Assembly: GCF_027595165.1 (NCBI RefSeq)
Contig: NZ_CP097291.1
Coordinates: 434,001 to 498,000, forward strand
Source: Providencia sp. PROV188
Lineage (GTDB): Bacteria > Pseudomonadota > Gammaproteobacteria > Enterobacterales > Enterobacteriaceae
Length of the DNA: 64,000 bases
Direction: 5' to 3'
A program made the position numbers and the translations under genes. Positions 32,339-42,064 of this stretch are shown piece after piece (the first letter of the stretch is position 1; every line of letters begins with the position of its first letter). The notes under the pieces are model-generated. The model was not told where the DNA came from and did not search any database. It was given only the letters and a program-made list of their open reading frames with translations.

Positions 32339-33193
32339 ATGGGAAAACGAATTCAAAGGTTATTTTTAATACCGTTGCTTTTTATAAGCTCTCTTGGTTA
32401 TGGGTCGACATATTTTTCGTATGTTGAAGACATTGTCTCTTCAGGGAGTAGCCATACCTATTATTACCAATTTGACTATTGGAGAGCTAGCTCTCCTACG
32501 GAACCAAACCCATGTGTTTCTGTTCTGGGTTCTGGTGGCGCTAGGAACTGTTATTTTACGATTAACCATTTACATACAGCGCCAAATATTGGGGGAGCAG
32601 GGTCTCGTAAAGACTGGGAGTGTTCCATAAATTTCGCGACTTACCCGACGATGCAATCAATTATTGATGCAGCGCAAAATCAATGCGGTTTAAGTTTTCC
32701 TAAAAGAGGGGATAGTCGTCACTCCGGAGCGATTACAGCAGATGAGTGTGTCGGTATCTTTTTAGACACAAACCGCACTAATAGTTCTGCGAAAATGCTA
32801 CCCGGTGGGATCTGTGGTATTGCGCCACCACCTGCCGGTAAGTGCTATTTCAATTATGTTGCAAATAACCGAATGGAATTAGATCACGGTACATTGAACA
32901 CTGGGGATCTGAATGGAAATACGCAGCGTGGATTCTTCTCGATTGTTTGTAACCAAAACATGCGAGTAAAAGTTTCTTCAAATATGTTGCAAGAGTATGT
33001 GAATTTACGTCCGAATGGTGAATTGATGTCACGAGTGACATTGAACGGTCAACCGGCTTGGTTTGGCACGATCATCAATGCAAGAGCAAATACGAATGAG
33101 CTTGTGACAGTAGAATCTGTATTGAAAACGAATGGTACGGTTGCAGCGGGTAACTTTAGTGGTGTAATTACACTGGTAATGACCATTCCATAA
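32339..33193 (+). CDS. MrpH-like fimbrial tip adhesin
   Basis: A 284-aa exported two-domain adhesin: signal peptide to about residue 22, an N-terminal receptor-binding domain (about 23-155), a PPP hinge, and a C-terminal pilin domain (KCYFNYV to VITLVMTIP). The N-terminal domain has His77 and His79 in INHLHT and His128 in DSRHSG. Their order and spacing match the three zinc-binding histidines of Proteus mirabilis MrpH, and Cys59, Cys71, Cys95 and Cys116 could form two disulfides. It is the last operon gene, as mrpH is before mrpJ; no mrpJ follows here. Ligand unknown. Confidence 0.85.
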   Translation: MGKRIQRLFLIPLLFISSLGYGSTYFSYVEDIVSSGSSHTYYYQFDYWRASSPTEPNPCVSVLGSGGARNCYFTINHLHTAPNIGGAGSRKDWECSINFATYPTMQSIIDAAQNQCGLSFPKRGDSRHSGAITADECVGIFLDTNRTNSSAKMLPGGICGIAPPPAGKCYFNYVANNRMELDHGTLNTGDLNGNTQRGFFSIVCNQNMRVKVSSNMLQEYVNLRPNGELMSRVTLNGQPAWFGTIINARANTNELVTVESVLKTNGTVAAGNFSGVITLVMTIP

Positions 33194-33817: not shown

Positions 33818-34777
33818 TTAAATTCTCTGATCGTTAATAGAAACACAGTCAAACTTATTATTTTTTTCTTTACAAACGCTAATTGCAGCATTTTTATCGA
33901 ATGAGTAAGAGGCATTGACATCTGAAAGAACAATAATTCGTTTTGGTTCTTCGCAGGCAATATTATATTTATCTAGCTTTTTATTAATAAAATCGAGATT
34001 GGTTTTTTTTGCCTGTTCATTCATTTTGATGGGAGATTGAAATACGCAATTATCTCGGCTTCCAAATGTTGTATAGCTATTCCTTTTATCATTATTTGGT
34101 TTTAGTGTATTGATAAATAAGTAAAATGATCCAATAAAGATGAATGAAATGATAGCGAATAAAAGCATCCTACCTTTTAGATTACTATTTTTAGTGGCAA
34201 TGATTTCTGAAGTTGCAATGGGTTTCGTCTTTGAATTATCGGTGCTATTACTTATTGAAGTATTAAGTTCTAAAATTTCATTTTCACCCTCTGAAATAGC
34301 GACTTTTGTCAGTTCAGTATTTTGGGGTATTAGCAAATTCTTAGATGGGGTGACAAGTGTTTCTGTTATTCCATAATTATCTGAAGTGATAATTTCATTG
34401 GATACAGTTTGCTTGTTGTCATTATCCATTGCAATACTGGATAGATGACTATCAATTCTAAATCCTTTTTTGGGAACCGTAACAATTGTTTTTGGATCAA
34501 TACCAACCAGCTCAAGCTTTTTCCTTATTTCGCTGATATAGGTGTTTAAATTATTATTTGATCCAACCAGACCATATTCTTCCCAAACATTTGTAAGAAG
34601 TTCGTCTCGAGTAGCAATACCTTTCTTTAAATTTAATAAAAGGATTTCACCAAATAATCGAGCGGCAGGTTTAGATAATTCAATATGTTGATCTGGATCA
34701 TCTTTTAGAAAAATACGACTTGTCCTGTGCTCAAAAATAAACTTGTTATCGATTGTATAATCATGTTTTTCAATCAT
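33818..34777 (-). CDS. ToxR/CadC-type membrane-bound regulator (MarT-like)
   Basis: A 319-aa protein with an N-terminal OmpR-type winged helix (about 10-105: LSKPAARLFGEILLLN, NNLNTYISEIRKKLE, TVPKKGFRI), a Ser/Thr/Asn-rich cytoplasmic linker (about 110-200), a single membrane span (about 204-224, MLLFAIISFIFIGSFYLFI) and a periplasmic domain of about 90 residues with three Cys. The ATG at 34777 is preferred over a TTG at 34813. It has no phosphorylation domain, as in ToxR and CadC. It faces the fimbrial operon convergently and is a likely regulator of it, though no binding site is visible. Confidence 0.85.
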   Translation of the reverse strand: MIEKHDYTIDNKFIFEHRTSRIFLKDDPDQHIELSKPAARLFGEILLLNLKKGIATRDELLTNVWEEYGLVGSNNNLNTYISEIRKKLELVGIDPKTIVTVPKKGFRIDSHLSSIAMDNDNKQTVSNEIITSDNYGITETLVTPSKNLLIPQNTELTKVAISEGENEILELNTSISNSTDNSKTKPIATSEIIATKNSNLKGRMLLFAIISFIFIGSFYLFINTLKPNNDKRNSYTTFGSRDNCVFQSPIKMNEQAKKTNLDFINKKLDKYNIACEEPKRIIVLSDVNASYSFDKNAAISVCKEKNNKFDCVSINDQRI

Positions 34778-35229
34778 AGTTATCTTCTGCTCTCTGAAAT
34801 TCAAATAATTCAATAGCTAAGCCACTATTAATTAGTGGCTTAATGTAATTTAAGTTAAATTTATTCTAGGGATTTATATATTTTTATTAATTTAATTATA
34901 GGTATAGTCTAAATAGGGATTGGAATAACTTCAAGTATTCGGAGATGAGCTTTTTTGCTGTAAATTAGCAAAAATATTGATTTGAATATCATATTGGAGT
35001 AATAAACTAAATAAAATATTATTGCTAGTTTATTATTATAAATATATTCGTTTTCGTTGTTATATCGGTAGATAAAACTAAATTTCTAGCGCGATAAGTA
35101 GAGTTATTTATAAGAATTATCCTAAGGGATTTCGCTTAATTCTATTTATAGGTGAAATTAACTGATAAGACAATTTATTTCTCAATTTATAAGGCAAGAA
35201 AGTAATATCTTGCCTTATAAAATTAAGTA
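34778..35229. other. AT-rich intergenic stretch
   Basis: Between the MarT-like gene and the TonB-receptor gene no coding sequence was seen. It contains the receptor terminator at 35188-35219 and should contain the promoter of the regulator pair. Confidence 0.4.
35188..35219 (-). terminator. Terminator of the TonB-dependent receptor gene
   Basis: TATAAGGCAAGA (35188-35199) pairs with TCTTGCCTTATA (35208-35219), 12 bp with an 8-nt loop, just 10 nt past the receptor stop codon. The following minus-strand tract is T/A-rich. Confidence 0.7.
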
Positions 35230-37260
35230 TTAGTATTTATATTCAATTCCTAGCCAATAGTTGCGACCTTCTTCTATATAGCCATCAGTATATTCATAAG
35301 ACTTGTCGAACAGGTTGTTGACTGAGCTGTTCACAGATAGCCCATGCCCTAAGTCATAATCCACGCGGAGGTCAGTTTTGGCGAAGCCGCGTACCTTATC
35401 TTCACTGTCCACATAGTTAAATGCCCAGCTTCTGGCTTCTTCTGTAATCGTAATGCTCATTGGCTGATATGGGGTAAATTTCACCCAAGCAAACGCTTTG
35501 TGGGTTGGCAGCTCTGCAACATGGCGTACGCTATAGTGTTTCGGATCCGCGTGGATATAGCTGTAGTTCATACCTGCTTCCATCCAATCGGTGATTTGCC
35601 CTGTAGTGCCTAAATCCGCGCCGATATAATCCACTTTGCCGCTATTACGGTTTTGCAGTAATGCGCCACCTTTTTTATTTTCGCCTACATGGTGCGCCAT
35701 AATGGCATCAGAAACGTGGTTATAGTAGGTACTTGCTGTATAGCTCCACACTGGAGTGAAATGCCCTTTATAAGTTAAATCAAAGGTCAGTGCACGCTCA
35801 GCATCTAAATGCGGGTTAATGAGGAATGAATCATCATTCTTCATTTTATTTTCGGTGTAGCGCTCTTTTTGTGTCGGGAAACGTGTTCTTTCGGATACAG
35901 AGAATTGAACGGTATCTTCATTTTCTAAATGGTAACGGGCCATCATCTCCCAGTTGAAGGCATGTTGGTTGTTATTGTCATAATGTTGAACGCCTTCCAT
36001 TGCACCGGTTTTTTTATTGTATATATAGCGTTTTCCATCATCACTATCACGCCAGTCATAGCCAATTCCGCCGATGATATCGAGCTTATCTGTCGCAACC
36101 CATTGGTATTCGGTAGAGACAGACCAGGTTTGATCTTTATAACGGTCAAATGGGTTGGTTTTATTACTGCGAGAGCGGTGAACGTCTTCTTTCCAGTGTG
36201 CGGCAAATGACAGCATATCTAATTCACGCACAGTAAAGTCTGCGCGTAGGTCTGCGCCGTTGCTGTAGTCATCATAGCGGCTGTAGTTATAATTACCTTT
36301 TTGATAATCCTTGACGGATTTGTACTGGTGCAGCGTGTTTTTGAATGAATCGTGATAAACGCGGCTTTGCAGGGCAATACCGTCAGTGACTTGGGTGGTG
36401 CCATTAAAGTAGATGCTTTCTTTATCATAAGCTGGCCACTGCCAGATCTGCTGCTTATCAGAGTTGGCATTCGGCGCACTGTTTTTGTCACCATCTTGCT
36501 TAATATAAGTCACCACATACTCATCGGCTTCTCGTGGCGTCCAGCCCATTTTCAGCATCAAACGCTTATCATCGGTGGCGGAGTTAGTGCGGCGTCCATG
36601 CGTTCCCGCATACGGGTTATTATCATCAGAGCTAGGTAGACCCATAAAGCGCTGCTTATATTGGCTACCACTGACTTGAATAAAACCTAAATCATTGCGA
36701 CCACCAAGGCGGGCGCTAACGTTATGGGCATTATCTGCACCACGCGCAAAGCCTTGGTTCAGGCTGATATTCGCTTCGAACGGTTTTTTTGGGGTCGCGG
36801 TGGTTAAGTTGATGGCGCCGCCCATTAAGTTCGGACCTTGTAACAGGGACGTATACCCCGTAGAAAGCTCAACACTTGCCAGTTCACTGGTCATAAAACG
36901 CCCAAGGTCAAGGGTACCGTCATAAGGAACATAGGTCGGGATACCGTCGAAGAAAACAGGCACTTGGCGGCTATCAAAACCACGTACATTCACTTGAGTC
37001 TCATTACGGTTACCGGATTTTTGGATCGCCACGCCGGGTAGGGTGCTGAGAGCTTGAGCCACGTTGGTTTTATTGAGTTGCTTCATTTGCGACTCAGTGA
37101 TCACGTTAGCATCAGCGGCGAGTGGGGTACTCCAGACTGACATCACATCGCGGCTCGCGTCAGCTTGTGTCTGATTATTCTCTGGAGAGGTCGTTGCTGC
37201 TTGCCCCTGTGTTGCGAATAACGCCATTCCTATCAAATAGGTAATTTGTTTTATTTTCAT
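35230..37260 (-). CDS. TonB-dependent outer-membrane receptor
   Basis: A 676-aa receptor: signal peptide ending at QA-A (about residue 21), a TonB-box-like DVMSVWSTP (about 39-47), a plug domain (about 48-160; NVAQALSTLPGVAIQ, VNVRGFDSRQVPVFFDGIP, GAINLTTATP) and a C-terminal barrel ending in LGIEYKY. It would import a scarce solute across the outer membrane with TonB energy. The substrate is not evident from sequence. A ModE-like box 40 nt upstream and the adjacent ModD/ABC operon point to molybdenum or tungsten species. No Fur-box-like sequence was recognised upstream, which argues against a standard iron siderophore receptor. Confidence 0.93.
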   Translation of the reverse strand: MKIKQITYLIGMALFATQGQAATTSPENNQTQADASRDVMSVWSTPLAADANVITESQMKQLNKTNVAQALSTLPGVAIQKSGNRNETQVNVRGFDSRQVPVFFDGIPTYVPYDGTLDLGRFMTSELASVELSTGYTSLLQGPNLMGGAINLTTATPKKPFEANISLNQGFARGADNAHNVSARLGGRNDLGFIQVSGSQYKQRFMGLPSSDDNNPYAGTHGRRTNSATDDKRLMLKMGWTPREADEYVVTYIKQDGDKNSAPNANSDKQQIWQWPAYDKESIYFNGTTQVTDGIALQSRVYHDSFKNTLHQYKSVKDYQKGNYNYSRYDDYSNGADLRADFTVRELDMLSFAAHWKEDVHRSRSNKTNPFDRYKDQTWSVSTEYQWVATDKLDIIGGIGYDWRDSDDGKRYIYNKKTGAMEGVQHYDNNNQHAFNWEMMARYHLENEDTVQFSVSERTRFPTQKERYTENKMKNDDSFLINPHLDAERALTFDLTYKGHFTPVWSYTASTYYNHVSDAIMAHHVGENKKGGALLQNRNSGKVDYIGADLGTTGQITDWMEAGMNYSYIHADPKHYSVRHVAELPTHKAFAWVKFTPYQPMSITITEEARSWAFNYVDSEDKVRGFAKTDLRVDYDLGHGLSVNSSVNNLFDKSYEYTDGYIEEGRNYWLGIEYKY

Positions 37261-37299
37261 TATTAATAATTTCCAGTTAGTTTTTCCTGCGACTTATAT

Positions 37300-37323
37300 C
37301 GATATATTTATTTTTATATAACG
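37300..37323. promoter_or_regulatory. Candidate ModE box upstream of TonB receptor
   Basis: CGATAT-N12-ATAACG spans 24 bp with AT on both outer sides, and its inner flanks are TATA-rich. E. coli ModE boxes have the same layout (CGTTAT-N12-ATAACG). It lies 40 nt before the receptor start codon. It is one base from the left-arm consensus. Confidence 0.65.
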
Positions 37324-37343
37324 ATGGGCGTCGCTTTTGCCAT

Positions 37344-37380
37344 AAAACACCATCCCGCGGTGAGCCGCAGGATAAGGTTT
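37344..37380 (-). terminator. Terminator of the ModD operon
   Basis: On the minus strand a G+C-rich imperfect stem around a CTCA loop (GCGG-CTCA-CCGC core, extended by CCT and GGG) lies 22 nt past the ModD stop and runs into GTTTTATG. It separates the operon from the receptor promoter. Confidence 0.55.
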
Positions 37381-37401
37381 TAAATCTATGTATTTGGGTC
37401 G

Positions 37402-38247
37402 TTAAGATTTAAATATCTGTACTTTGATGTCTCTCGGGTTTGCGTAATAGGGAGCTGAAGTGATCAACAGAGGAACACCCGCTTGGGCGAAACTTTCGAT
37501 AGTTTGCAAGTTAACGCCACCGGCAATGGATAATCGGCAGCGGGATTTTTTCTCATTCACCAAGCGTTGTAATTGCTGAATCTGCTCCACAGGAAGTTTA
37601 TCCAGCTGGACAATATCGGCGTTGGTATCAATGGCAAGCAGAGCTTGCTGATAATCATCGGCTTCAACGATGATCTGCTTCTCAGGCGCGGCCGCTCGTA
37701 ACGTATCGACATGAGATTGCCAATCATCGGGATTTGTAAGGCAGTTGCGATGATTGGTAAACAGCAAGATAGTTTCTGCGCTGCCAGCACGATGGACAAT
37801 GCCGCCACCAGCGAGGATCGCGGTTAACGCAAGGGGCTTGGTCGCGGGAATGGTTTTCCGTGTGCAAGCGAGCTGCCCATTAGGGTGATATTTTTTTAAT
37901 ATCGTGACCATTTGATGGGTGTAGTGACTGACGCCACCGCACCATTCAAGGACATTCTGGACTGCCTTCCACCCTTGATGCAGTGCTTCAACCGAGCCAG
38001 ACGCGTTAATCAAGCGGCTTTGTGGCTCCACAATATCTCCGTCACGAAATAGGCATTCACTGCGTATGCCCAGCTTTGTGAGCATACGCTGGGCGATATC
38101 CAACCCGCTTACACAGCCGCCAAGTTTCGAGGTAAAGGTCATGGTGCCTTGCTGGGTGTGTAAGCCAAGTGCGCGGCTGGTGAGATCCCCATACTGGATA
38201 TCATCGAGAAGCAGCTGGTCAATTAGGGTGTCAGGCAAGTAAATCAT
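37402..38247 (-). CDS. modD: ModD, NadC-like phosphoribosyltransferase family protein
   Basis: A 281-aa protein of the quinolinate phosphoribosyltransferase (NadC) fold, in the ModD branch associated with molybdenum transport genes. NadC landmarks are present: DLTSRAL, the ACTRKTIPATK phosphoribosyl-binding loop, GGGIVHRAGSAETILLF, the acidic VEADD strand and IAGGVNLQTI. The Lys of the usual NadC KDNH motif is replaced (FTNH), so ordinary quinolinate activity is doubtful. Its start overlaps the methyltransferase stop by 4 nt. It is the last gene of a binding protein-permease-ATPase-methyltransferase operon. The biochemical role of ModD is not established. Confidence 0.85.
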   Translation of the reverse strand: MIYLPDTLIDQLLLDDIQYGDLTSRALGLHTQQGTMTFTSKLGGCVSGLDIAQRMLTKLGIRSECLFRDGDIVEPQSRLINASGSVEALHQGWKAVQNVLEWCGGVSHYTHQMVTILKKYHPNGQLACTRKTIPATKPLALTAILAGGGIVHRAGSAETILLFTNHRNCLTNPDDWQSHVDTLRAAAPEKQIIVEADDYQQALLAIDTNADIVQLDKLPVEQIQQLQRLVNEKKSRCRLSIAGGVNLQTIESFAQAGVPLLITSAPYYANPRDIKVQIFKS

Positions 38248-39062
38248 AATGTCAGTTCCGCTTCATCCACCACATCCCATGAGACCATCGCCCAATCGCG
38301 GGATGGGAACGGCAGGGCTTTACCATCGGCGGTTTGTTTCTCGTAGTAAGCGCGCAGCTTTTCAGTTTCTTCTTCGGTGAGATCTTTGAGCGACCAGTTT
38401 ACGCTGTCGATAAATGCATCCACGTTATCGAATCCACCTCGATTTGGACTTTTAATAAAGTCGACACGGGCATGGATCCCCATTTGATGCAGGACATTCA
38501 CGGCATAGATATAGGTTGGCAGGCTAACCACTTCGCGCCCAATTTCACGGATAATTTTCTCATCAATAAATGTCGGGTTAACGGTGTGAGTGGTATACAC
38601 GCGCAGGTTAGTTTGGCGGTTGAGTTTTAACATCGCAGCTTTTAAGTCATCCACGAGGGTAGAGCGGGAGGCCACCGAAATATCGGCTTTTGGTAAGTCG
38701 TCCCAGCTATCTTCCCACGCAAGGGTTTTAAATTGCGCATTGGTGACATTCATCTCTTTGGCGCGAATATTGGCCATTTCGAGCATACCTGCACTGTAGT
38801 CAATGCCGGTGACAGATTGAAATTGGTTAGCGAGATAAAGGCTAATAGAGCCAGGTCCACATCCCACATCCAGCAAGGTTTTTGCACCCGTAAAATCCAT
38901 TAATTGGCGAAAGCGAATTAAGTATGGGTCGTTCGGATTGGCACAGTTTTGCGCCATTTGGTGGGCTTTTTTATCCCAATGTTCTGGTTCTTTGCGTGTG
39001 CGTTGGGCTTGTTGCATATGCTGCTGATACATCGCGGCAAAATCGAGTTGGTGAATAAGCAT
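38244..39062 (-). CDS. Class I SAM-dependent methyltransferase in transporter operon
   Basis: A 272-aa Rossmann-fold methyltransferase with motif I LLDVGCGPGSISLYLA, the acidic SAM-ribose loop GIDYS and LAWEDSWDDLPKADISVASR further on. The ATG at 39062 has CAGGG just before it; an in-frame TTG at 39080 would overlap the ATPase gene. It lies between the ATPase gene and modD, overlapping modD by 4 nt. The methyl acceptor is unknown. Its tight coupling to an importer and ModD suggests it modifies the imported ligand or a small chelator. Confidence 0.85.
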   Translation of the reverse strand: MLIHQLDFAAMYQQHMQQAQRTRKEPEHWDKKAHQMAQNCANPNDPYLIRFRQLMDFTGAKTLLDVGCGPGSISLYLANQFQSVTGIDYSAGMLEMANIRAKEMNVTNAQFKTLAWEDSWDDLPKADISVASRSTLVDDLKAAMLKLNRQTNLRVYTTHTVNPTFIDEKIIREIGREVVSLPTYIYAVNVLHQMGIHARVDFIKSPNRGGFDNVDAFIDSVNWSLKDLTEEETEKLRAYYEKQTADGKALPFPSRDWAMVSWDVVDEAELTL

Positions 39063-39073
39063 GATCCCTGACC

Positions 39074-39841
39074 TTAACAAGTAAAATTGAGTGGAAGCTG
39101 AAAATGCGCCGTAATACTCGGTGCATCGATATTATAGAGTTCTGCCAAGTTAGTGAGCGTTAACATACTTTGAGTCGAGCCTTGCCGTGCCTGCTGTTGT
39201 TTGTTTAATAAAATCACATGGTCGGCAATGGCAGCGGCATGTTGGGGGTGATGGGTGGACATTAACACCGTGATCCCATGCTGCTTCAGTGTTTCGATAT
39301 GCTGTAACAGCCGAATTTGATTGCCAAAATCGAGGCTGGCTGCGGGTTCATCCATAATCAATAACTTGGGTTTTTGGACTAAGGCTCTGGCAATTAAAAC
39401 CAGCTGCTTTTCTCCCCCGCTGAGGGTGCTATACAAGCGCTCTGCAAGGTGAGCAATGCCAAATTGGGTCAATTGCTCCATGGCACTGACTTTCTCTTTT
39501 TCCCCCGGTACGCTGAACGCTGAGAGATAGGGGGTTAGCCCCATCATCACCATATCGACCACCGAAAACGTAAAGGGCGTATCGTGAGCTTGGGGTACGT
39601 AAGCAATCACTTTCGCGATATCTCGCTGTTTCAGCCGGCTGATGGATTGCCCTTGCAAGCGTATATCCCCATCAATGGCAGGAAGTAACCCTAATAAGGT
39701 TTTCATTAAGGTGGTTTTTCCGCACCCATTCGCGCCCAGCAAGCAGGTCATCTCACCTTCAGGTAAATGCAGGTTAATGCCTTCAATAATGGCTTGGCGG
39801 TGGTAGCCGATCGCCACATTGTCTAGGGTTAAAATACTCAT
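39074..39841 (-). CDS. ABC transporter ATPase (siderophore/B12/MolC type)
   Basis: A 255-aa ATPase with Walker A GANGCGKTT, the Q-loop VPQAHDTPF, signature LSGGEKQLVLIARAL, Walker B LLIMDEPAASLD and the switch His in STHHPQ. It belongs to the FepC/BtuD class that powers FecCD-type permeases. It overlaps the permease gene by 4 nt (ATGA), so the two are translationally coupled. In this family some members (Haemophilus MolC) serve molybdate/tungstate import. Confidence 0.95.
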   Translation of the reverse strand: MSILTLDNVAIGYHRQAIIEGINLHLPEGEMTCLLGANGCGKTTLMKTLLGLLPAIDGDIRLQGQSISRLKQRDIAKVIAYVPQAHDTPFTFSVVDMVMMGLTPYLSAFSVPGEKEKVSAMEQLTQFGIAHLAERLYSTLSGGEKQLVLIARALVQKPKLLIMDEPAASLDFGNQIRLLQHIETLKQHGITVLMSTHHPQHAAAIADHVILLNKQQQARQGSTQSMLTLTNLAELYNIDAPSITAHFQLPLNFTC

Positions 39842-40842
39842 TTAACCCGCCTTGTTTGTAGCAAAATGGCTAAGAAAAAGGGTGCGCCCACGGCGGAGGT
39901 TAAGATCCCGAGCGGTAACTCAATGGCTGCAATGGTGCGAGCTAGCGTATCGGTGATCAGCAGTAAAATAGCGCCGATAGCCATTGCTGCAGGGAGCTGA
40001 TAGCGGAAGTTAGCACCCACTATCATTCGCGTAATATGGGGAACAATCAATCCTACCCAGCCAATAATGCCAGCTATCGACACGGTGCTGGCGGTAATCA
40101 GGGTTGCGCTAACAATCAAAATGGTGCGATTGAGTGTGACATTTACGCCTAAACTTTTGGCTTCTTCATCGGATAAACTTAGCAAATTCATGCGCCAACG
40201 CAGCATCAATAATGGCACGAAACCCACGATCATAATGGGCAACACTGACCATAAATCTTGCTGAGTAATGGAAGATAATCCACCGAGTAGCCAGAACGTA
40301 ATAGAAGGAAGCTGCGTGTAGGGGTCGGCTAAAATTTTCATTAATGAGATGGCGGAGCCGCAAATCGCACTGACGGCAACCCCAACTAGAACAAGGGATA
40401 GAATAGGATCGTGCTGGCGGGCTAGGCGAGCAATCAGATACACCACCGCCACCGTGATAAGCCCACCCACAAAAGCAAACAGTTGGATAGAAACCAGAGA
40501 TTGTCCGAGAAATATCCCTAAAACAGCTCCGACGCCCGCCCCTGCGGAAACGCCTAAAATATCAGGGGAAACGAGAGGGTTACGAAACATACCTTGATAA
40601 GCCGCGCCGGCAATCGCTAGCCCGCCGCCAATCAAGATGGCGGCTAAGACGCGTGGAAAGCGAATTTGCCAAAATACCGTATTGCTACGAGGATCATCGA
40701 CGGGCGCTTGAGTAAACAAGTGATAGAGCTCTTCCAAGGTTAGTGAGTATTTACCACTGGTTAATGCCATCAGAAAACAGAGTAGCAAAATAGCCATCAA
40801 TAATAATGGCTTAGTTTTGGTATTGAGCCAGCTCGCCGTCAT
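39838..40842 (-). CDS. FecCD-family ABC transporter permease
   Basis: A 334-aa inner-membrane permease with about ten helices. Family segments include RFPRVLAAILIGGGLAIAGAAYQGMFRNPLVSPDILGVSAGAG and GIIGWVGLIVPHITRMIVG near the ATPase-coupling loop, and the C-terminal ELPLGILTSAVGAPFFLAILL. It forms a homodimeric channel for the neighbouring ATPase and binding protein. It overlaps both neighbours by 4 nt. The class covers iron-siderophore, cobalamin and MolB-type molybdate permeases. Confidence 0.95.
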   Translation of the reverse strand: MTASWLNTKTKPLLLMAILLLCFLMALTSGKYSLTLEELYHLFTQAPVDDPRSNTVFWQIRFPRVLAAILIGGGLAIAGAAYQGMFRNPLVSPDILGVSAGAGVGAVLGIFLGQSLVSIQLFAFVGGLITVAVVYLIARLARQHDPILSLVLVGVAVSAICGSAISLMKILADPYTQLPSITFWLLGGLSSITQQDLWSVLPIMIVGFVPLLMLRWRMNLLSLSDEEAKSLGVNVTLNRTILIVSATLITASTVSIAGIIGWVGLIVPHITRMIVGANFRYQLPAAMAIGAILLLITDTLARTIAAIELPLGILTSAVGAPFFLAILLQTRRVK

Positions 40843-41879
40843 GACCTTTCCATTAGTAAGTCGACCTGCTCTTGAGTGAGCGATGAATGGTAGAACAGCT
40901 CAAAAAATTGTCTTAGATCGTGAGTCATCGTCTCTTCAACCGCTTTATCAAAGTGACTTTGTAAGCGTCTCATGCCCAGTAAACGGTTGATCCCTGGTGG
41001 ACCATCTAACCAACCGAATGGCATCCCACTGAATACGAACAGGTTATTCGATGAGATGGCTTTGAGTCCTGCCCATAATGGCGAGCGAGTAATTAATTCA
41101 ACAGATTCATCATATTGGGTGATGATAATATCTGGCTCCCACTGGTACAGCTGTTCCATGGAAACATCGGTCAAACCGTGGAATCCATCGATGTCCACCA
41201 CATTACGAAAACCGAGCATTTCGATGGCTTCAGTATGAATAGAACCTTTTGTGCCGGTTTGTAGTCCTTTTGCACCTCTGGCGAGGTAAAAACTGAGGGG
41301 TTTTTGTTGTTGAGTCAGTGCAAATTGCTGCGCATTGCTAAGATAGCGTTCTGCTACCATACTCAGTTTTTCAGCTTGCTGATTAACATTCAATAGACGA
41401 CCAAGTTGACGCAGCTGTTGCGGAGCATCAATCAGCTTACCATCCATCAGCAAATACGGGATCCCCGTTTGTTTGGCGACTTTTTCCGCTTGGGAACGGT
41501 AGGTTTCATCGATATTGCCAGTATCGAGGATCAAATCAGGGTGATAAGCCAATAATTGTTCAAGGGATAACGTGCTACCTCGTCCCGCAAGACGACCATA
41601 AACAGGCAAATTCATCCATTGTGGCGCAAATAGTTCACTATTCCCTTTTTTCAAGTTAATCGAGGCAAAACCCACCATTTTTTCTGGGGTGAGGGCAAAC
41701 ATCAGTAAGTCTGCGGGCGGACCCGCCGTGATCACCTTTTGAATGTTACCATTTGCAGGTAAAGTACCGAATAATGCCTCTGCGACAGGGCTGCGACTAA
41801 ATGCAGGTAAACTGTAGTATGCCGCAAGGACAGCGCAGGATTGGATAAAATGTCTTCTGTTCATTGCCATAATTAACAT
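40839..41879 (-). CDS. Periplasmic binding protein (BtuF/FepB class) with Tat-like signal
   Basis: A 346-aa solute-binding protein of the class with two lobes joined by a long helix. Typical points are KVITAGPPADLLMFALTPEKMVGFAS, SLEQLLAYHPDLILDTG and SMEQLYQWEPDIIITQY. The N-terminus NRRHFIQSCAVLAAYY is a twin-arginine signal candidate. The start is uncertain: ATG at 41879, 41870 or 41864 all lack a good ribosome site, and the candidate ModE box abuts 41879. It is the first gene of the operon, and its divergent neighbour is gntR. Confidence 0.88.
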   Translation of the reverse strand: MLIMAMNRRHFIQSCAVLAAYYSLPAFSRSPVAEALFGTLPANGNIQKVITAGPPADLLMFALTPEKMVGFASINLKKGNSELFAPQWMNLPVYGRLAGRGSTLSLEQLLAYHPDLILDTGNIDETYRSQAEKVAKQTGIPYLLMDGKLIDAPQQLRQLGRLLNVNQQAEKLSMVAERYLSNAQQFALTQQQKPLSFYLARGAKGLQTGTKGSIHTEAIEMLGFRNVVDIDGFHGLTDVSMEQLYQWEPDIIITQYDESVELITRSPLWAGLKAISSNNLFVFSGMPFGWLDGPPGINRLLGMRRLQSHFDKAVEETMTHDLRQFFELFYHSSLTQEQVDLLMERS

Positions 41880-41903
41880 CGTTATACTTATATTTATATA
41901 GCG
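41880..41903. promoter_or_regulatory. Candidate ModE box upstream of the ABC-ModD operon
   Basis: CGTTAT-N12-ATAGCG spans 24 bp, the same size and layout as the box at 37300-37323 and as known ModE operators. Its A/T-rich middle could overlap the -10 region of the operon promoter. One arm has a single G in place of A. Confidence 0.65.
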
Positions 41904-42064
41904 CGAAAATTAGCGAAGTCAGGCAACAGAGTCAACAGTAAAAATGAGATAGCACTGAAAAGTCGATGTTTCTGTGATTTAAAGCAATATCAAGGATTGA
42001 TATCCACTGGCAGATCGCAGAACATAGCGAAATATAACGGCGTATTATAGATAATCTGGGATAT

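Follow-up and report, generated by a model that had tools for sequence, protein, structure and literature searches.

We propose that a TonB-dependent outer-membrane receptor and an adjacent ATP-binding cassette (ABC) transporter operon in Providencia sp. PROV188 form an uptake system that is almost certainly under the control of the molybdenum regulator ModE and that probably imports molybdenum or tungsten. The genes lie on the minus strand between positions 35230 and 41879 of the 64,000-nucleotide stretch analysed here (contig NZ_CP097291.1, positions 434,001 to 498,000), hereafter called the window, and a ModE-type palindrome stands ahead of each of the two units. The system would likely provide a second and costly route for molybdenum, possibly also for tungsten, that is induced by molybdenum shortage and operates beside the standard modA-led importer.

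Five genes with successive overlaps of 4-7 bp, which therefore most likely constitute a single operon, encode a substrate-binding protein (SBP) of the FecB/BtuF/MolA class (40839..41879, with an arginine pair near its N-terminus, MNRRHF), a FecCD-type permease (39838..40842; PF01032, 310.8 bits), an ABC ATPase (39074..39841; PF00005, 113.9 bits), a class I S-adenosylmethionine (SAM)-dependent methyltransferase (38244..39080; identified by Pfam and by the SAM motif D-x-G-C-G-x-G) and ModD, a quinolinate-phosphoribosyltransferase paralogue (37402..38247; assigned by TIGR01334 and by alignment with the NadC of the same genome). The receptor gene (35230..37260) follows after a gap of 141 bp. Its product is a relative of Escherichia coli PrrA, is 99% identical to a relative in Providencia rettgeri, and possesses the plug and barrel domains of a TonB-dependent transporter, both above cut-off (PF07715, 71.9 bits; PF00593, 87.8 bits). 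The gap contains the palindrome of the receptor and a terminator-like hairpin (37350..37375, minus strand) that fits two transcription units, albeit as weak evidence, with terminator-like hairpins in little excess over shuffled sequence (9 observed, 6.7 in shuffles). Across the six products, the Pfam cut-offs for FecCD, Peripla_BP_2, ABC_tran, Methyltransf_25, Plug and the TonB barrel are exceeded. An earlier note on this DNA had described the receptor and the tightly overlapping five-gene operon, all on a single strand; all six genes lie at the coordinates given here, and the family searches agree with its naming.

The same note had claimed that each unit is led by a 24-bp ModE-like palindrome. 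Using the pattern CGNTATAT-N8-ATATANCG, which spans 24 bp and has 14 fixed bases, we indeed located a copy without mismatch ahead of the receptor (37300..37323) and a copy with 1 mismatch ahead of the SBP operon (41880..41903), the latter being kept in relatives. Since this second palindrome abuts the first ATG of the SBP gene, translation may start at the ATG of MNRRHF instead. Shuffling the receptor leader (37261-37401) 5000 times gave no perfect box and 2 boxes with at most 1 mismatch, and the same number of shuffles of the SBP leader (41880-42064) gave no box with at most 1 mismatch. In the whole genome (4.02 Mb) only six places match with 0-1 mismatch, namely the receptor, the SBP operon, modA (TIGR01256, 255.6 bits; cut-off 62.5), moaA (TIGR02666, 350.4 bits; cut-off 284.05), a dmsA-type gene of the dimethyl sulfoxide (DMSO)/selenate-reductase type (639.3 bits, for an open reading frame (ORF) truncated by the end of the sequence examined) and one orphan. 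Two places with 2 mismatches also precede molybdenum-related genes, one a dmsA-type gene (L018) and the other (L025) an ORF with an XdhC-family gene behind it. Only the window receptor, among the 11 plug-domain receptors of the genome, has a box upstream. ModE itself is encoded by the genome (TIGR00637, 125.2 bits; cut-off 98.5), and in E. coli K-12 the same 24-mer occurs with 1 mismatch 19 bp upstream of modA. The features expected of a ModE regulon, a ModE gene in the genome and leader palindromes that are above chance and conserved, are thus both present. The orphan is a perfect palindrome at C1:2091708-2091731 of the genome (L012:1501-1524); no gene start is obvious in the gap that holds it, and it might belong to a small RNA or a small gene.

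The conservation of the boxes was assessed in named genomes scanned with the receptor alignment, which yielded 291 relatives; the counts in this paragraph refer to the best 80 of these 291, and a box was scored at no more than 2 mismatches. Within the 400 bp ahead of the receptor, 48 of the 80 loci have a box (36 at no more than 1 mismatch); shuffling predicts 0.05, and the remaining DNA of the loci has 0.0031 per 420 bp (11 boxes in 1,486,818 bp). SBP-led operons carry a leader box in 47 of 51 cases, and 70 of the 80 loci have one at the receptor or the SBP leader. When the methyltransferase leader is also counted, boxes are found in 71/80 loci and under 29 of 36 genus labels; many of the loci are close kin, and the genus count weighs more than the locus count. 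ModD is encoded in 45/80 loci. A modA-, modB- or modE-like gene occurs in 16/80 (BLAST, at least 30% identity), a number to be read with the caveat that at least one of the modE-like matches, that of L122, is a Mop-domain protein only.

The gene order of the window is kept in Providencia, Proteus, Morganella, Pectobacterium, Serratia, Citrobacter, Klebsiella, Raoultella, Enterobacter and Escherichia; in some loci (e.g. L075, L078, L091, L096, L108, L113 and L117) genes are broken or were missed by ORF calling, and ModD is missing from all three Shewanella loci. In its order as a whole the system is rare: among 295 sampled genomes the receptor is present in 4 (E ≤1e-80), the methyltransferase in 12 (1e-40) and ModD in 7 (1e-35). 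Beyond Enterobacterales the receptor often stands among molybdenum genes, in different arrangements. Locus L069 comprises a box with 1 mismatch, the receptor, a small Oxidored_molyb-domain protein, modA, modB, modC and a ModE-type gene, with moaA farther away; modA, modB, modC and moaA score above cut-off, and the ModE-type gene is above cut-off for the Mop domain and below it for the ModE models. In Lampropedia (L135) modABC, the receptor, the SBP, the permease, the ATPase and a modE-like gene occur together, in Corticibacter (L128) modA-, modC- and modE-like genes lie near the receptor, and in Alcanivorax-type (L130, L131) and Dyadobacter (L144, L149) loci a modE-like gene is found immediately ahead of it. 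The receptor adjoins ModE and has a perfect box in L155/L161. Because the association recurs in differing gene arrangements, it argues that the receptor itself, and not merely the operon, belongs to molybdenum. The proposal of ModE control and of a molybdenum-related role made in the earlier note is backed by the conservation of the boxes and by the modE and modABC neighbours in these lineages.

The two enzymes of the operon suggest that a small organic molecule is involved, which may be the ligand of the metal. In the methyltransferase the SAM motif is invariant in 20/20 aligned relatives, and the fold model is that of a generic small-molecule methyltransferase. Eight loci contain this gene without a transporter, 5/8 of them with a box of no more than 2 mismatches in the 400 bp upstream; no such box was found ahead of the lone copies in L053, L057 and L061. 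Because box-led copies stand without a transporter, the methyltransferase appears to be part of the molybdenum response in its own right. The box of the lone copies in L056, L058, L059, L060 and L063 begins no more than 150 bp upstream. ModD scores 353.8 bits against TIGR01334 (cut-off 178.85) and stays below the cut-off of the NadC model TIGR00078 (142.9 bits; cut-off 198.4). Alignment with the NadC of the same genome revealed that TRK and HR, two of the elements whose roles are known in NadC, are kept, and that a third, LIKENH, is replaced by LLFTNH, which suggests that ModD transfers phosphoribosyl to a substrate other than quinolinate. In the available text of PMC2700814, ModD is described as a "possible quinolinate phosphoribosyltransferase" with no demonstrated reaction.

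In the proposed mechanism, molybdate-loaded ModE would occupy both palindromes and block both units, and falling cytoplasmic molybdate would lift these blocks. A molybdenum species would be captured at the surface by the TonB-driven receptor, passed through the periplasm by the MolA-like binding protein and taken by the FecCD permease and the ATPase into the cytoplasm, where the methyltransferase and ModD may modify, release or recycle the ligand. Our first choice for the cargo, held with about even confidence, is ligand-bound molybdenum, for two reasons: porins are presumed to let free molybdate through, and the operon holds two enzymes for small organic molecules. More tentatively, and with slightly less than even confidence, we suggest that PrrA represents a dedicated family of TonB-dependent receptors for a molybdenum complex, present in enterobacteria and many other Gram-negatives, whose ligand is made, unloaded or recycled by ModD and the methyltransferase.

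Several results weigh against this proposal. At no more than 3 mismatches the window contains 6 palindromes against 3.26 expected, a number reached by 11 of 100 shuffles, and at no more than 2 mismatches the whole genome contains 26 places, compared with 22 when the pattern is reversed; neither shows clear enrichment. The weight of the box evidence lies in the near-perfect copies and their positions, and loose matches are uninformative. By the criterion used, nine of the 80 near loci lack a box: Citrobacter (L092), Pasteurella (L118), Lonepinella (L119), Herminiimonas (L120 and L121), an Ignavibacteriaceae metagenome-assembled genome (L136), Aggregatibacter (L137), Pedobacter (L138) and Azotobacter vinelandii (L147). 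Both Herminiimonas loci have a modE-like gene elsewhere in the locus, and the Aggregatibacter locus has two boxes farther upstream, in the interval that separates the SBP gene from a small gene preceding the receptor. The receptor-family member of A. vinelandii (L147:9845-11851), a species known for its molybdenum chelators, has no box even at no more than 3 mismatches. A sample of 369 genomes drawn across the class gave results in both directions. The receptor family was found in 7/369 (E ≤1e-55; three candidates scored per genome, so that misses are possible) and the ModE-type domain in 69/369 (E ≤1e-8), and both in 6 of the 7 receptor genomes. In favour of the proposal, with the Providencia genome itself set aside, the domain occurs in 5/6 receptor genomes and in 63/362 others (p 0.001, kinship uncorrected). 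Against it, at the curated ModE cut-off only 3/7 receptor genomes (own included) are positive, and 20/369 overall; and of the six distant receptors of this sample only two have a box at no more than 2 mismatches (L155, perfect and beside ModE, and L159), one has two 3-mismatch sites and three have none. The tie between receptor and ModE is thus tight in near relatives and looser far out, and it is not universal. The operon also contains no recognisable genes for chelator biosynthesis apart from the methyltransferase and ModD. As for the SBP, its nearest relatives of solved structure include MolA of Haemophilus influenzae (about 20% identity, a superfamily-level relation), but MolA ranks fourth among many, with iron, haem and B12 binders close behind.

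Other features were noted around receptors of this family. SBP_bac_6 proteins are encoded near distant receptors in L120 and L145, a di-haem DHOR protein in L145 and L147, and a CCP_MauG di-haem protein together with an Oxidored_molyb domain protein in Dyadobacter L149; the surroundings of the receptors in L125 and L132 appear similar by eye. A redox step in metal handling is a possible reason for such neighbours. In Proteus mirabilis (L029:11067-19512) the receptor gene is followed by an apparent type III secretion gene cluster, judged by eye.

If the cargo were instead the free molybdate or tungstate oxyanion, our second choice, taken directly by the receptor and the binding protein, the place of MolA, which carries the Protein Data Bank (PDB) title molybdate binding protein, among the closest solved relatives of the SBP would be readily understood. 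We regard this as unlikely, since porins are presumed to let molybdate in by diffusion (PMC8264917, in its available text), such a cargo leaves ModD and the methyltransferase unexplained, and conserved positive charge is not in surplus in the receptor (outside the plug, the positions invariant across 7 aligned receptors comprise 10 basic and 11 acidic residues). The porin view agrees with the statement of the earlier note that an outer-membrane step for molybdenum is not standard in enterobacteria; it has to be set beside a report from Pseudomonas aeruginosa in which secreted ModA and the protein IcmP deliver molybdate at the outer membrane (cited in the available part of PMC11734730). The P. 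aeruginosa route resembles the proposed one in having an outer-membrane step in molybdate acquisition and differs in its carrier, which is secreted ModA and not this cluster. Distinctly improbable, in our view, is a cargo that is no metal at all, but an organic molecule for molybdenum shortage or molybdenum cofactor chemistry, such as a cofactor or breakdown product, salvaged by the methyltransferase and ModD. The two enzymes and the box-led methyltransferases that stand without a transporter would suit it, and TonB receptors for organic cofactors exist, a pyrroloquinoline quinone (PQQ) transporter being among the distant profile matches of the receptor; yet the receptor occurs elsewhere with modABC genes and without methyltransferase or ModD (L069, L128).

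Uptake of iron (as siderophore or haem) or of cobalamin is the function under which the E. coli copy has been published, its cluster prrA-modD-yc73-fepC being "proposed to be involved in iron uptake" (PMC1890555, available text) and included in a set of seven clusters for iron uptake in O157 Sakai (PMC2323221, available text). Iron, haem and B12 transporters also make up most of the best-scoring named families for the components of the transporter (for the ATPase, among the best 25 of 190 matches). Such specificity was the finding that the earlier note had named as contrary to its proposal; receptor and binding protein both remain under the curated cut-offs of the families of this kind that they match, with receptor scores of 102.1 (cut-off 223.5) for TIGR01783, 105.1 (316.85) for TIGR01785 and 84.8 (599.7) for TIGR01779 among the curated NCBIfam models. 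The other contrary finding named in the note was expression dependent on Fur but not on ModE; at the level of sequence, Fur-like sites at the two leaders reach at best 10/19 and 11/19 positions of the consensus, which is ordinary for the DNA of the window. With a conserved ModE box, and with modE, modABC and ModD as neighbours of the receptor or operon, we consider an iron, haem or cobalamin system very unlikely.

The preferred reading, import of molybdenum or tungsten, can be set against several known systems. MolBCA (HI1470-HI1472) of H. influenzae, a low-affinity molybdate/tungstate importer, has a binding protein of the same class and shares the FecCD-type permease. It differs in the distance between the binding proteins noted above and in a cluster that, as listed in the available text of PMC3928620, has no receptor or methyltransferase; according to the same source a gene named modD adjoins molABC. 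ModABC shares the operator type and the regulator ModE with the window system but is a different class of importer: no ModA or ModB model matched the SBP or the permease, whose families are Peripla_BP_2 and FecCD, and the modA of this genome, followed by a modB-like ORF (by eye), is located elsewhere. The solved TonB-dependent receptors Cir, PhuR, BtuB, OprC and ZnuD have the plug and barrel architecture in common with the window receptor; the best profile match among solved receptors reaches just 103 bits (Cir) over part of the chain. Searches among open-licence papers turned up no TonB receptor that had been linked to molybdenum or ModE.

The closest described counterpart is the E. coli cluster (prrA-modD-yc73-fepC in CFT073, ECs1693-ECs1699 in O157 Sakai), which has the same gene order as the window from SBP to receptor. 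Our comparison rests on three E. coli loci (L026, L151 and L166), the CFT073 cluster being known here by its published description. The proteins of L026 are 46-63% identical to those of the window, and a perfect ModE box precedes the SBP gene in all three loci; L026 and L166 differ from the window in having this single box (at no more than 2 mismatches) and none upstream of the receptor. The published label, iron uptake (PMC1890555 and PMC2323221, each in its available text), is a further difference. The cluster sits between treA and ymgE on the chromosomes of L151 (4545-10971) and O157 Sakai (L166:33011-39437), where K-12 has ycgY, and is annotated as iron or enterobactin/citrate transport despite its ModE box and ModD; the RefSeq name of the SBP in L151 is iron ABC transporter protein. 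Of 5426 complete E. coli genomes, 2102 match the receptor gene of this cluster (2094 over no less than 80% of its length), and 2098 of the 2106 matching places are chromosomal; the laboratory standard strain ATCC 25922 carries the gene at full length. If the proposal holds, this cluster would become a molybdenum system and molybdenum would join the metals that are actively fetched across the outer membrane. Some environmental molybdenum would then be in a form that porins or ModA cannot manage, hosts or competitors might withhold the metal, and ModD would gain a function, one that is directly testable.

Two further genes were noted in the window. A winged-helix (Trans_reg_C) regulator with a membrane-like segment, judged by eye, adjoins the receptor gene (33818-34813), and an MrpH-type fimbrial adhesin is encoded at 32339-33193.

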